Shown here: piece after piece, positions 42,232 through 51,483 of the stretch
Layout: every line of letters starts with the position of its first letter
Numbering within the stretch: the first letter of the stretch is position 1
DNA from: Candidatus Moraniibacteriota bacterium
Lineage (GTDB): Bacteria; Patescibacteriota; Minisyncoccia; CAIUEV01; JAHKAQ01
Direction of reading: 5' to 3'
NCBI GenBank assembly: GCA_014729795.1
Contig: WJJI01000047.1
Span: 1-54,916, forward strand
Length of the DNA: 54,916 nucleotides
The notes under the pieces: generated by a model
Seen by the model: only the letters and a program-made list of their open reading frames with translations
Told to the model about the DNA's origin: nothing
The model's database searches: none
Made by a program: the position numbers and the translations under genes

Positions 42232-43350
42232 ATGAAGAAAAAACCTACTAGTAAGAATCATACAGCACATAACACTAAAAGAGGTGAGCCCAAGAGAGCA
42301 AACCTTGATTATAAAGTATTGAAATTGCCATATGAAACTATCAGAAAAGCTATAGATGGCCTACCCAATAAAAGAATGAAAGAGGTTGTCTTGGAAAGGT
42401 TTGGATTAAATAACAATAGTCCAAAAACTTTAGAAAGAATCGGGGAAAAGCTTAAAATAACCAGAGAAAGGGTCAGACAAATTGAAAACGAAGCCTTGAA
42501 AAAGATTTTTAAAGCAAAAGCGAGCAACAAAGTCGATTATGTTTTAAATAGAATTAAGCAAATTATTGAAAAATACAAGGGAATAGCAAGCGAACTTAGG
42601 ATTTTAAAAGAATATAATCCACAACAATTAGGTAATAACAGTCAAAAGTCGATTTTGTTAGCTTTGCGAATGGGAAATGATTTCAGCCTATTAAACAAAC
42701 CGAAAGAATTTGAAAGAGCCTGGTATTCAAAAAAAGCGAATTTGGGATTTATATATAAACTGAACAAACATTTGAAAAAAAACTTAAGTGATTTTAATAA
42801 ACCAATACAAGATCAAGATATTGTCAAGTTAATCAATCAAGAAAAAGAATTAAGCAAGCTGCCTGATGAAGTACTGTACTCATATATTGATATTCCAAAG
42901 CAGATTCAAAAAAATATATTTGGCCAATGGGGGTTGGTAAGCTGGCCGATTATTGCACCGAAAAAAATAAAAGATAAAATTTATTTGGTGTTTCAAGGTG
43001 AAAAAAAACCCTTACATTACGAGGAAATTGCGAAAAAAATAGATGAATATAAGCTAAATAAAAGAAAAGTTTGTATTCCGACAGTACATAATGAATTAAT
43101 AAAAGACCCAAGGTTTATTTTGACTGGTAGAGGAATATATGCCTTAAAGGAATGGAATTTTTTCCCTGGCACAGTTAAACAGGTTTTAATCAGGATTTTT
43201 AAAGATAACGGCAGTCCTTTGAGTAAAGAATTTTTAATTCAAGAGACATTAAAACAAAGACAAGTAAAGGCTTCAACTATTTTATTAAATCTTCAAGATT
43301 CAAAAATTTTTAAAAAAAGAAAAGACGGAAAATATTCTTTAAAAAAATAA
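42232..43350 (+). CDS. Sigma-70 region 4-like HTH fused to HARE-HTH domain
   Basis: LPNKRMKEVVLERFGLNNNSPKTLERIGEKLKITRERVRQIENEALKKI (sigma4); KPLHYEEIAKKIDEYKLNKRKVCIPTVHNELIKDPRFILTGRGIYALKEW (HARE-HTH); no region 2. Confidence 0.85.
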   Translation: MKKKPTSKNHTAHNTKRGEPKRANLDYKVLKLPYETIRKAIDGLPNKRMKEVVLERFGLNNNSPKTLERIGEKLKITRERVRQIENEALKKIFKAKASNKVDYVLNRIKQIIEKYKGIASELRILKEYNPQQLGNNSQKSILLALRMGNDFSLLNKPKEFERAWYSKKANLGFIYKLNKHLKKNLSDFNKPIQDQDIVKLINQEKELSKLPDEVLYSYIDIPKQIQKNIFGQWGLVSWPIIAPKKIKDKIYLVFQGEKKPLHYEEIAKKIDEYKLNKRKVCIPTVHNELIKDPRFILTGRGIYALKEWNFFPGTVKQVLIRIFKDNGSPLSKEFLIQETLKQRQVKASTILLNLQDSKIFKKRKDGKYSLKK

Positions 43351-43375
43351 AAAAGCCCTCAATGCGGGAGAGGGC
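43341..43375 (-). terminator. Rho-independent terminator (minus strand)
   Basis: Minus strand reads GCCCTCTCCCGCATTGAGGGCTTTTTTATTTTTTT. Confidence 0.8.
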
Positions 43376-43493
43376 ATGAATCCCTTGAAAATAAATATCG
43401 GAAAAAAAATATTTTTCCCCGGGTTTCAGGTGGGTTTCAGTTTTTCCGCTCTCCGTTCTGAAGGCTTTTCCATGCCAATAATATTAAATTGGC
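43341..43493 (-). ncRNA. Candidate structured ncRNA gene of unknown family
   Basis: Own promoter on the minus strand (TTAACA-N17-TATAAT), internal helices (GGCATG/CATGCC, TTCAG/CTGAA, CCTGAAA/TTTCAAGG) and a canonical minus-strand terminator; no ORF. Confidence 0.5.
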
Positions 43494-43500
43494 AAATGAT

Positions 43501-43529
43501 ATTATAGTTTGTAATATTATTTTTGTTAA
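43501..43529 (-). promoter_or_regulatory. Minus-strand promoter TTAACA-N17-TATAAT for the ncRNA candidate
   Basis: Plus-strand TGTTAA 43524-43529 and ATTATA 43501-43506. Confidence 0.6.
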
Positions 43530-43601: not shown

Positions 43602-44723
43602 TTAATCATTATTAATCTCCGGTTCTGAATTCGTGGTAATGGAATCTTTTCCTAAAATTATTAATATATCCGCTGTAGATGTAGATTCTCGTTCTGGAAT
43701 TTGTTCCTTAACCTCAAATTCAAACTCTTGGGTTAGCATTTTTATTATTGGCTCTTTTTCTTGACCGGATAAATTAATTATTACTGTTTTATTAAAGTTT
43801 TGATTTTGCGCGTTACCAACATCAATATTTTTTTCAAAACTTAATTCCTGAAGTTTGTCTGAATAATCTCCGGCTAAACCGGTCTTTTTTGTTCCATTTC
43901 TGATCTCCACTTTTACTGATCCAAGTAGTTGGTTTAGCTGTTCTTGGTTTATTTCTGGCTTTTGTTCAGCTTCAGCGTCAGCTTGTTGGTTATCTTGGGT
44001 GTTATCATTTAGATTTTTTTTTGCCGGTTTTAAACTATCTTGAAAAAATATTGGCCCGGAATTAATAATTTGGTGGTCTTGCTCGCGATAAATATGAATT
44101 TTTCTTGATTTGGGAAAAATCACAATCAAGTCATTATTTTGAGCATCTTCAAAAAATGGTTCTTGGTCTTTGAAGTATTGAGCATCCTTAATTTCCGTGA
44201 TAATGGGCTGTTCGTCATTGGGAATGGAAATTAGGGACTCAAGATCTTTTATAATCTGATTCTTTTCATTTTCAGCTAATATTTTACCTTTACTTATTTT
44301 TTTTAGTTCTTGGTTTTCCTTAATAATATTTTGATTTTGAATAAAGAGCAGAATTGCAATATTGATAATTGCCAAAATCAGGATAAAGATAACTATCCTT
44401 AAAATCCAACCAAGAATATTTACTTTTTTATTTGAGGTTATTTCCTGATTATCTTGAGTTTGATTTTTGGAAGTTTGTGTCGAATCGTACTGAATCTTGG
44501 CTTGTTCTTTTTCTTGCTCTTCTTTATGCTTGCTTAAATTCTTAAGCCATTTTTTTTGATTTGTTTGCTTTTTGTTTTGATTTTTAACCTTTTTGCTCTT
44601 TTGGGTTAAGTTTTTGGATTGTTTTTTGCCCTGTTCAGCCTTATTATGAGCTTTTTTTTTCGACTTGCTATTGATTGATGTTTTTCTCTTAGTTGTTTTT
44701 GTAGATGATTTTTTTTTGCTCAT
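43602..44723 (-). CDS. Lys-rich membrane protein with C-terminal LytR_C domain
   Basis: Basic low-complexity N-terminus, one TM, 'SVKVEIRNGTKKTGLAGDYSDKLQELSFEKNIDVGNAQNQNFNKTVIINL' = LytR_C. Confidence 0.8.
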   Translation of the reverse strand: MSKKKSSTKTTKRKTSINSKSKKKAHNKAEQGKKQSKNLTQKSKKVKNQNKKQTNQKKWLKNLSKHKEEQEKEQAKIQYDSTQTSKNQTQDNQEITSNKKVNILGWILRIVIFILILAIINIAILLFIQNQNIIKENQELKKISKGKILAENEKNQIIKDLESLISIPNDEQPIITEIKDAQYFKDQEPFFEDAQNNDLIVIFPKSRKIHIYREQDHQIINSGPIFFQDSLKPAKKNLNDNTQDNQQADAEAEQKPEINQEQLNQLLGSVKVEIRNGTKKTGLAGDYSDKLQELSFEKNIDVGNAQNQNFNKTVIINLSGQEKEPIIKMLTQEFEFEVKEQIPERESTSTADILIILGKDSITTNSEPEINND

Positions 44724-48657: not shown

Positions 48658-51483
48658 ATGCAAGATAATAAAAAAATAAACTTTATATACTTTTATTTAT
48701 TATTAGTAGTTGGATGCTTTAGCTTGGTTTTATTTTTTTACTCAGCCATAATTATTGGATTGGTAATTTTGGCTATTTTGATTTTAGCCGGTATTTTTTT
48801 GAATTACTCAACACCGATTCTTTCAGGAATTTTTAAACAATTTTTTCTTGAATCAAAATACCGGTTGATGCATACAAGAAAAGGAGTTTTTAGGTTTTTA
48901 TTAAAAACCAAATTAAATTTATTGGGTTTTTTTGTGATTATATTTAATGATGCTTACTCAAGTTATGAATTAATGAACCCTAAAAAACCAAAAAGAGCTG
49001 AGCAATCAAGAAATGGAATTAAATTTTCATCCGAGCAGTATCCAAAGCCTATATTTAAAATTCACCAAAAAAGACGAAAAATAGCGGCAATAATCTCCTT
49101 CTTTTCCTGTTTAGCCATTGTGTGTTTATTGATCTTTTTACCCAATAGGTTGCCAGCATTGGCAGGCGTTTATGAGAAATCAATTTGGCGCTATTTTTTT
49201 ACCTGGGATGAAAAAAAAGTCATTGGTTGGTTTGCTTCAAAACAAGTTGCTCATGATTTGGAAACAAAACACACAAGATTTAAAAACATTATTAATAATT
49301 ATCATTTAGAAGATAATAGTATAGGCATGGATAAAATTGAAAATTTGATACCAACCATAGAACAAGTGGACTCTAACATAGAACAAGTGGATTTTAGCTT
49401 GGATGATGGAACGCAAACTGGTCAAATGGCATATTGGAACAATGAGGAAAATCGATGGTATCACACTGAAATAAATGATCTTTATTGGGATCATAATAAC
49501 AAAAGATTGGGCGTTGGAACCGCCAATCCAAGATCGGTTTTTAGCTTGAAAGGTAACCGGGGTTTAATTATTGAAAATCAAGGAACAGATTATTGGAATT
49601 TACAAACTTTCATTGATGGATCCTTGAGATTTAACCAAAGTTCTGGATTAACTAGGTTAATAATGAATCAAGGAGGTAATATTGGGATTAACAATTTATC
49701 GCCAAACCGAAAACTTGAAATCACGGATAATACATCCGCTCAATTAAGATTAAGCTATGATCAGAGTAATTATTTTGATATGCAATCTTTAAGCGATGGC
49801 GATGTTTATGTAAATCCTTCAGGTTCTGGTATTGGTTTTTGGGAAAATAATCCTACACCTTCATCTTGGTTGGGCGGAAATGCTAATGTCTTGCATGTTT
49901 CCAGAGGATCAAAAGAAGCTGCTGAATTAGTACTGGACGGAACAGCGAGGTTTTATTTTAGAGGAGGAGTAACTCATGCAAGATTAGGTTCTTTAACTAA
50001 TAATAATTTTATTTTTGACATCCACAGATCTCCGGTCATGCATTTATCCTCAAGCGGTTTAATAATTAGCAATGCCTCGGCGACAACCTCTGCTCGTAAA
50101 TTGGAATCATATGATCGTTCCAATCCTCAACTAAGATTATCTCAAAATCCTGGAAGCGTATACACAGATATGGGAACTAACAATAGCGGAGTATTAGATA
50201 TTTCGCCAACCGGAAGCACAGTAAGAGTAAACTATAATGGCTCTCCTTATTATTCTTCTACTCGTAGCGGTACAGAATTTGTTTTAGACCCAACAACTGG
50301 CTCGGCAAGAACAATTTTGGGCGCATATGATGCTCAAGGAGCGCCTTGGTCAGTGTTTGGGAATAATTTTTACATAACAAATAGCGATTTCGGAAGAATT
50401 GATTCCACTTGGTCTGGCTGGGGCTTTGTTTTTGACGGCCGGCCGGCTGAGGATCTGTTTAAGATGACTTATGTAGGAGCGGGAGGGGCTACAAAAACTT
50501 CGAAATTTGCAGTCACAGCCAACGGTAGTATTTATGCAGGTAATAATTTAGGGGCAAATCCAAGGCCCAATCCTGCCAATACTTTTTACTTTAATGGAGC
50601 AACCGGCCGCCTAGGAGTTAATAGAATGGGAGCGCCTGATAGAAGAATTGAAAGTGTTGACAACGCTAATCCACAATTAAGGCTTACCCACACCCCGGCA
50701 ACCGCTTTTGTAGATTTACGATCCGACAGTAACGGAGATTTATACATATCCTCAAACAACACCGTAGGTAATACCGATATTTATCTTGACGGCGCGATTA
50801 TTCATACTTCTGATGTTGCCAAGAAAAAAGACATAAGAGCATTGGAGTATGGACTTAAAGATGTGATGAAATTAAATCCGGTTAATTATAATTGGAAAAA
50901 TGGCGGTAAAGCGGAAATTGGTTTTATTGCTCAGGAATTAAAAAATATTATTCCGGAGGTGGTACATGGCAAGGATGGCAACATGGGAGTGGCATACGCT
51001 CAATTAACCGCTCTTGCAATTAAAGCAATTCAAGAGCAACAAATCCAAATTGAGGAAATAAAATTAGCAAACAAAGAACAAACAGAAAAGATTACTAATT
51101 TGACTCAAAATACCGAGCTGATTAAAGATAGGCAGGAATTAAATGAACAATATTATAAAGATTTAACCAGTGAAGTAGCATTCATTGATGAAAGATTTGA
51201 AGATTTAGATAAAATAATCGAGGATCATGAGGAAAAAATTGAGGAATTGGAAGGTAATCCAGATTATCAAAAAGGTTCATTTGTTATAAAAAAGGGGGAG
51301 GAATCCATCAAAGTTGATACAAAAATAATTCATAAAGAATCATTAATATTTTTAAGTCCTGTAGGAGAAAAGCCAGTTAGCTGGATTATTTCAGATATCG
51401 ATGAAGGAGAAAGCTTTGAAGTTTTATTAGATCAAAAAGCTCAAGAAGATATTAAGTTTAACTGGTGGATCTTGGCGGATTAA
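48658..51483 (+). CDS. Large membrane-anchored fibre protein with C-terminal S74 intramolecular chaperone domain
   Basis: N-terminal TMs; 'HTSDVAKKKDIRALEYGLKDVMKLNPVNYNWKNGGKAEIGFIAQELKNIIPEVVHGKDGNMGVAYAQLTALAIKAIQEQQIQIEEIK' = S74/endosialidase chaperone; terminal coiled coil. Confidence 0.85.
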   Translation: MQDNKKINFIYFYLLLVVGCFSLVLFFYSAIIIGLVILAILILAGIFLNYSTPILSGIFKQFFLESKYRLMHTRKGVFRFLLKTKLNLLGFFVIIFNDAYSSYELMNPKKPKRAEQSRNGIKFSSEQYPKPIFKIHQKRRKIAAIISFFSCLAIVCLLIFLPNRLPALAGVYEKSIWRYFFTWDEKKVIGWFASKQVAHDLETKHTRFKNIINNYHLEDNSIGMDKIENLIPTIEQVDSNIEQVDFSLDDGTQTGQMAYWNNEENRWYHTEINDLYWDHNNKRLGVGTANPRSVFSLKGNRGLIIENQGTDYWNLQTFIDGSLRFNQSSGLTRLIMNQGGNIGINNLSPNRKLEITDNTSAQLRLSYDQSNYFDMQSLSDGDVYVNPSGSGIGFWENNPTPSSWLGGNANVLHVSRGSKEAAELVLDGTARFYFRGGVTHARLGSLTNNNFIFDIHRSPVMHLSSSGLIISNASATTSARKLESYDRSNPQLRLSQNPGSVYTDMGTNNSGVLDISPTGSTVRVNYNGSPYYSSTRSGTEFVLDPTTGSARTILGAYDAQGAPWSVFGNNFYITNSDFGRIDSTWSGWGFVFDGRPAEDLFKMTYVGAGGATKTSKFAVTANGSIYAGNNLGANPRPNPANTFYFNGATGRLGVNRMGAPDRRIESVDNANPQLRLTHTPATAFVDLRSDSNGDLYISSNNTVGNTDIYLDGAIIHTSDVAKKKDIRALEYGLKDVMKLNPVNYNWKNGGKAEIGFIAQELKNIIPEVVHGKDGNMGVAYAQLTALAIKAIQEQQIQIEEIKLANKEQTEKITNLTQNTELIKDRQELNEQYYKDLTSEVAFIDERFEDLDKIIEDHEEKIEELEGNPDYQKGSFVIKKGEESIKVDTKIIHKESLIFLSPVGEKPVSWIISDIDEGESFEVLLDQKAQEDIKFNWWILAD

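Follow-up and report, generated by a model that had tools for sequence, protein, structure and literature searches.

A probable natural circularly permuted 6S RNA in Candidatus Moraniibacteriota

We estimate at about 0.9 the probability that a small RNA gene on the minus strand of a 54,916-nt stretch of Candidatus Moraniibacteriota DNA (the window) specifies a 6S RNA with a natural circular permutation, one that most likely works as 6S RNA does. The Moranbacteria-type hosts are ultra-small bacteria. 6S RNA is a decoy that holds RNA polymerase and a near-universal bacterial regulator of this enzyme. Descent of the window RNA from 6S RNA, with its parts permuted, is strongly supported. It is also very likely that the window RNA is the first circular permutation of 6S RNA seen in nature, that it is fixed in the Moranbacteria line and in relatives of the same class, and that an open-promoter mimic tolerates being cut at its apical loop and sealed at its outer stem.

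The gene and the order of its parts

The RNA locus lies between a gene with Sigma70_r4 and HARE-HTH domains (42232-43350, plus strand) and a LytR_C-domain gene (43602-44723, minus strand). The former, with its sigma-70 region 4, may encode a transcription factor, and it is not conserved beside the RNA. The initial annotation had proposed an orphan non-coding RNA gene at this site, and sequence reading located on the minus strand the promoter, helices and terminator that it described, namely TTAACA (43529-43524), a 17-nt spacer and TATAAT (43506-43501); a GCCAAT/ATTGGC inverted repeat (43493-43474); GGCATG (43476-43471) with CATGCC (43378-43373); and GCCCTC-N9-GAGGGC (43375-43355) with a T-rich tract (43354-43341) behind it. 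The stretch is also free of open reading frames, as had been claimed, with none of at least 60 aa inside the RNA region in an ORF check of the window. The single-sequence fold has an energy of -50.1 kcal/mol (z -5.1), which none of 200 shuffles equalled.

The features of the locus are given below; R1 and R2 are covariance models of the RNA family, and R3 is a model made from rotated ordinary 6S RNAs.

43350..43474, minus strand: permuted 6S RNA, conserved body of ~125 nt, with its 5' end near 43474-43467 (R1/R2 and R3 matches)
43338-43474, minus strand: match of R1/R2 to the window RNA
43372-43446, minus strand: match of R3 to the window RNA
43501..43529, minus strand: upstream promoter TTAACA-N17-TATAAT of the initial annotation (sequence)
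43478..43483, minus strand: -10 box TATTAT, at about the family-conserved distance
43458..43467, minus strand: P1 5' strand, AAGCCUUCAG, at the position of the end of the apical arm in ordinary 6S
43449..43454, minus strand: P2 5' strand, GGAGAG (fold and covariation)
43432..43439, minus strand: P4, UGAAaCCC, the upstream edge of the bubble (covarying pairs and R3; gggcaCCC in ordinary 6S)
43418..43431, minus strand: non-template side of the bubble, ACCUG...CGG, with the 3'-CB hairpin (R3 alignments)
43400..43419, minus strand: P5 hairpin, GGGAAAAA/UUUUUUCC, equivalent to the ordinary 6S downstream helix (P2) with a small-loop cap
43385..43401, minus strand: template side of the bubble, CCGAUAUUUAUUUUCAA, with the predicted pRNA start opposite U 43397
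43377..43384, minus strand: P4 partner, GGGaUUCA (covariation and R3; GGGagccc in ordinary 6S)
43367..43372, minus strand: P2 3' strand, CUCUCC (fold and covariation)
43353..43362, minus strand: P1 3' strand, UUGAGGGCUU, a terminator together with the U-tract after it
43341..43354, minus strand: terminator U-tract (sequence)

Ordinary 6S RNA runs from the outer stem through the template side of the bubble and the apical arm to the non-template side, which carries the ACCCACCUGG hairpin, and back to the outer stem. The window RNA holds these core parts in the opposite order, that is, arm (P1-P2-P4), non-template side with the ACCCACCUG hairpin, capped P5, template side, arm and terminator. It would differ from ordinary 6S RNA (RF00013) in its swapped halves, in the small loop that replaces the outer stem, and in the position of both its ends and its terminator, which would lie in what was the apical arm. 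The predicted path begins in that arm, passes through P4 and the non-template side into the capped downstream helix, and returns along the template side, CCGAU...UUUUCAA, followed by GGGaUUCA and the arm, where the closing stem and U-tract would act as terminator; the ordinary outer stem would thus have become a small-loop cap and the ordinary apical loop would have been opened. The template side keeps CCGAUAUUU, identical to nt 40-48 of E. coli 6S RNA, with its fifth base at nt 44. This places the template start at the downstream edge of the bubble, as in E. coli, by sequence only. The U of CCGAU corresponds to E. coli nt 44, which we take to be the known pRNA start in that species.

Because the 6S halves are encoded in swapped order, the RNA is hidden from the standard 6S model. 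Rfam 6S in its natural order had no match in the window or in the rest of the window's own genome, and all of Rfam yielded only chance matches in the window, both at the gathering threshold and up to an E-value of 10. The initial annotation had recognised no SRP, tmRNA, RNase P or known riboswitch here. Its hint at 6S RNA was correct, even though this RNA escapes the Rfam 6S model. Its proposal of an orphan gene was half right: the gene is probably free-standing, has a predicted promoter and terminator of its own, is conserved and covaries, but it is a 6S RNA with permuted halves and so not an orphan.

Homology to ordinary 6S RNA

The permuted homology was tested with R3, a covariance model for which 25 6S RNAs of ordinary order were taken from other Patescibacteria and the second half of each was put before the first (alignment A6). 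Its anchors were set by hand, and its input consisted solely of ordinary 6S RNAs, with zero members of the permuted family. Against the window's 1.08-Mb genome, R3 ranked the window RNA at the top (34.1 bits, E 3.4e-6), the runner-up having 14.1 bits and an E-value of 1.7. All 16 permuted loci tested were matched, with a best E-value of 1.6e-9; the match at L020 was weak (17.5 bits). Across 188 genomes of the class, R3 gave nine matches at E<=0.01, which were the nine genomes (9/9) that carry the RNA by R1/R2, and none in the other 179. The family was modelled before 6S RNA was considered and R3 holds no family members, which limits circularity.

Sequence-only profiles gave a similar picture. 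A rotated-order HMM matched 51 loci at the RNA, a natural-order HMM matched just the ACCCACCUG half (15 bits), and three column-shuffled control HMMs found nothing significant. The best supported homology is a core of ~65 nt around the bubble, the outer arm having diverged from ordinary 6S arms.

We consider it improbable that this is an unrelated new small-RNA family that shares the ACCCACCUG and GGGA motifs with 6S RNA by chance. The arm sequence does differ from 6S RNA and Rfam 6S has no natural-order match, as such an origin would have it, but the order and spacing of the parts, the A-A mismatch and the flanking helices all match 6S RNA, and R3, which is blind to the family, singles out the RNA in its own genome and finds no other match in the 188 genomes.

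6S RNAs of ordinary order occur widely in Patescibacteria (L007, L008, L027-L030, L070-L096), but nearly all are below the Rfam 6S cut-off, so that 6S RNA is probably under-annotated across the phylum. Only four of 27 such matches exceed the cut-off; the matches, sub-threshold or true, have the core GGGAGNC...GNCACCCACCUGG-hairpin. A sub-threshold match in G162 (L026) is false, being inside an open reading frame. In family f167 the matches (L093 and L096) cover model positions 39-148 only and the outer closing stem is seemingly very short, perhaps representing a reduced 6S RNA. We found no relatives with the RNA in both orders. Among 286 genomes of the class, five have a real ordinary 6S RNA and 17 the permuted one, with no overlap, although chance alone predicts as much.

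Distribution, promoter and conserved structure of the family

The suggestion that the RNA be sought in related genomes was borne out, since it is conserved beyond its own genome and shows covariation. When related genomes were searched with the DNA, the RNA turned up in one relative of the same family and in two genomes that belong to another family of the same class, and R1, a covariance model made from four sequences of the RNA family, detected it in 17 genomes of a class sample of 286. Scanning named genomes for a pattern gave 39 loci, 36 of which are real; nearly all of these have the title Candidatus Moraniibacteriota or Parcubacteria group. The pattern loci were selected in part by ACCCACCUG, and the unbiased tests are therefore those of R3 on the window's own genome and on the 188 genomes. 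Loci titled Oscillibacter (L039), Desulfobulbaceae (L052) and Deltaproteobacteria (L065) were chance motif matches and not the RNA. In the window's own order the RNA was not detected in genomes G001 and G003-G008, which may reflect loss, incomplete MAGs or divergence, and weak R2 matches in the same order (L106-L114) lacked the core motifs. A phylum-wide R2 search found no further carriers outside the class, and a scan of viral contigs did not find the RNA.

Of the 45 sequences, 44 have a -10 box (at least five of six matches) located 8-12 nt before the GCCUUCAG start; the figure at random places is ~7%. In the window, TATTAT is at this position besides the upstream TTAACA-N17-TATAAT, so two promoters are possible; the upstream one, if used, would add a 5' hairpin leader of ~20 nt. 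Neighbouring genes differ at almost every one of the 45 loci, and the window's flanking genes are not shared. Taken with the covariation described below, the conserved box and the varied neighbours indicate an independent RNA gene with its 5' end at the closing stem. The RNA does abut the stop codon of the convergent Sigma70_r4/HARE-HTH gene, as might a 3' UTR, bidirectional terminator or attenuator; however, given its own -10 box, its changing neighbours and the strand-specificity of its covariation, we regard a cis-acting element of the flanking genes as highly improbable.

The 45 distinct sequences share a long-range closing stem (AAGCCUUCAG/UUGAGGGCUU), a covarying UGRRaCCC/GGGaYYCA stem, a CCUG/CAGG hairpin and a GGAAAA/UUUUCC stem. 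In their alignment 95.8% of cells are paired, and there are 142 double-change cells, spread over 17 pairs, compared to 47 in shuffles; when partners were slid by one column, all covariation measures collapsed. The bubble-adjacent stem illustrates this, as it varies by species between UGAAaCCC/GGGaUUCA, UGGAaCCC/GGGaUCCA, UGAGaCCC/GGGaCUCA and UGGGaCCC/GGGaCCCA. The structure is a 6S-type rod with a central bubble between two helices, in which P1, P2 and P4 covary and P5 is conserved; since P5 is almost invariant, covariation speaks neither for nor against it.

Inspection of the same 45 sequences also separated family features from those particular to the window. The GCCAAT hairpin and the local GCCCTC/GAGGGC terminator hairpin are present in the window as described but absent from relatives, and the second CTGAAACCC copy of the reported twin motifs is not kept in relatives. 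The proposed competition of GGCATG/CATGCC with the terminator did not hold up beyond the window sequence, this helix being absent in relatives.

A few loci depart from the common form. L055, L021, L017 and L044 have extra hairpins inserted at a single point of the arm, between ACGC and the 3' strand of P2, where growth is thus tolerated. An 84-nt copy in G230 (L023:1501-1584) has the arm and terminator without the entire bubble domain, and is either a decayed copy or an assembly collapse of the hairpin. In L043 and L063, CCCCGTTAGA replaces the closing-stem 3' strand and terminator, through either terminator loss or a rearrangement just downstream.

Proposed mechanism and relation to known RNAs

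We infer that the RNA is transcribed, bound by polymerase, copied into a pRNA and released. The rod with its open bubble would mimic an open promoter and bind the RNA polymerase with its housekeeping sigma factor, which would start a short pRNA opposite U 43397 (predicted 5'-AUCGGAAAAAAAA...). As the ends have moved to the apical loop and the outer stem is sealed, pRNA synthesis would have to run into a capped hairpin and not towards a free 5' end. It would open the weak, A-U-rich capped helix, and the freed GGGAAAAA strand could pair with the U-rich bubble, forming a bubble-collapse helix as in B. subtilis, whereupon the RNA would be released. The predicted pairing resembles the B. subtilis helix but is suggestive only. 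When the template was blocked in silico, the collapse helix formed in 42 of 44 sequences compared to 57% with shuffled bubbles, a weak test because the sequences are related and A/U-rich.

The closest known counterpart is man-made. In B. subtilis 6S RNA, the role of the -10 element falls to the 3' side of the bubble, beta and beta' are contacted by helix P2, and the molecule can do without its terminal stem P1 (PMC8876501). This dispensable stem is exactly what the window RNA is missing. The engineered 6S82cp, a minimal 82-nt permuted 6S-1 RNA with a loop-capped downstream helix P2, bound polymerase, templated pRNA and was released, although its pRNA synthesis was poor, which was blamed on the cap (PMC8876501). 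It has the same kind of permutation as the window RNA but lacks a -35-like arm, whereas the window RNA is natural, its arm is long, and it has a promoter and a terminator. Its P5 consists almost entirely of A-U pairs and may melt more easily for that reason.

The low pRNA synthesis of the engineered RNA with its capped helix (PMC8876501) would suit a 6S-derived RNA that is no longer a polymerase decoy and has turned to another partner, or to the core enzyme as has Ms1, a 6S-like polymerase-binding RNA of actinobacteria, a different host group (PMC9130861). We consider this unlikely, as conservation in the RNA is highest in the bubble, at the template start CCGAU and on the -10-like side. The features shared with ordinary 6S RNA (RF00013) are a central bubble with a GGGa.../...aCCC edge, a long rod, a predicted promoter of its own, a small ACCCACCUGG hairpin on the non-template side and, as in E. 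coli, the CCGAU template start.

Permuted gene order is also seen in another housekeeping RNA, the permuted tmRNA of alphaproteobacteria and cyanobacteria, which is processed into two pieces. Unlike it, the window RNA appears to be one continuous molecule without excision, as suggested by the promoter position and the closing stem. To our knowledge, permuted housekeeping RNAs are very rare. For 6S RNA, we found no natural case in the open full-text literature, only the engineered RNA (PMC8876501), although an earlier description is possible.

A natural permuted 6S RNA would show what the polymerase requires of the molecule, and offers a natural test of how release by pRNA synthesis proceeds with a downstream helix that lacks a free end. 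It accounts as well for the apparent lack of 6S RNA in a large uncultivated bacterial group, and shows that permuted members escape standard RNA family models. The permuted gene plausibly arose when an ordinary 6S gene was duplicated in tandem and the outer halves were then lost. In an RpoB tree, a single change separates the carriers from the genomes with ordinary 6S RNA, with weak support at the deepest fork.

Elsewhere in the window, positions 48658-51483 encode a 941-aa protein with an N-terminal hydrophobic region and a C-terminal Peptidase_S74 (endosialidase chaperone) domain; the contig that carries it is bacterial, with a 16S rRNA at its end.
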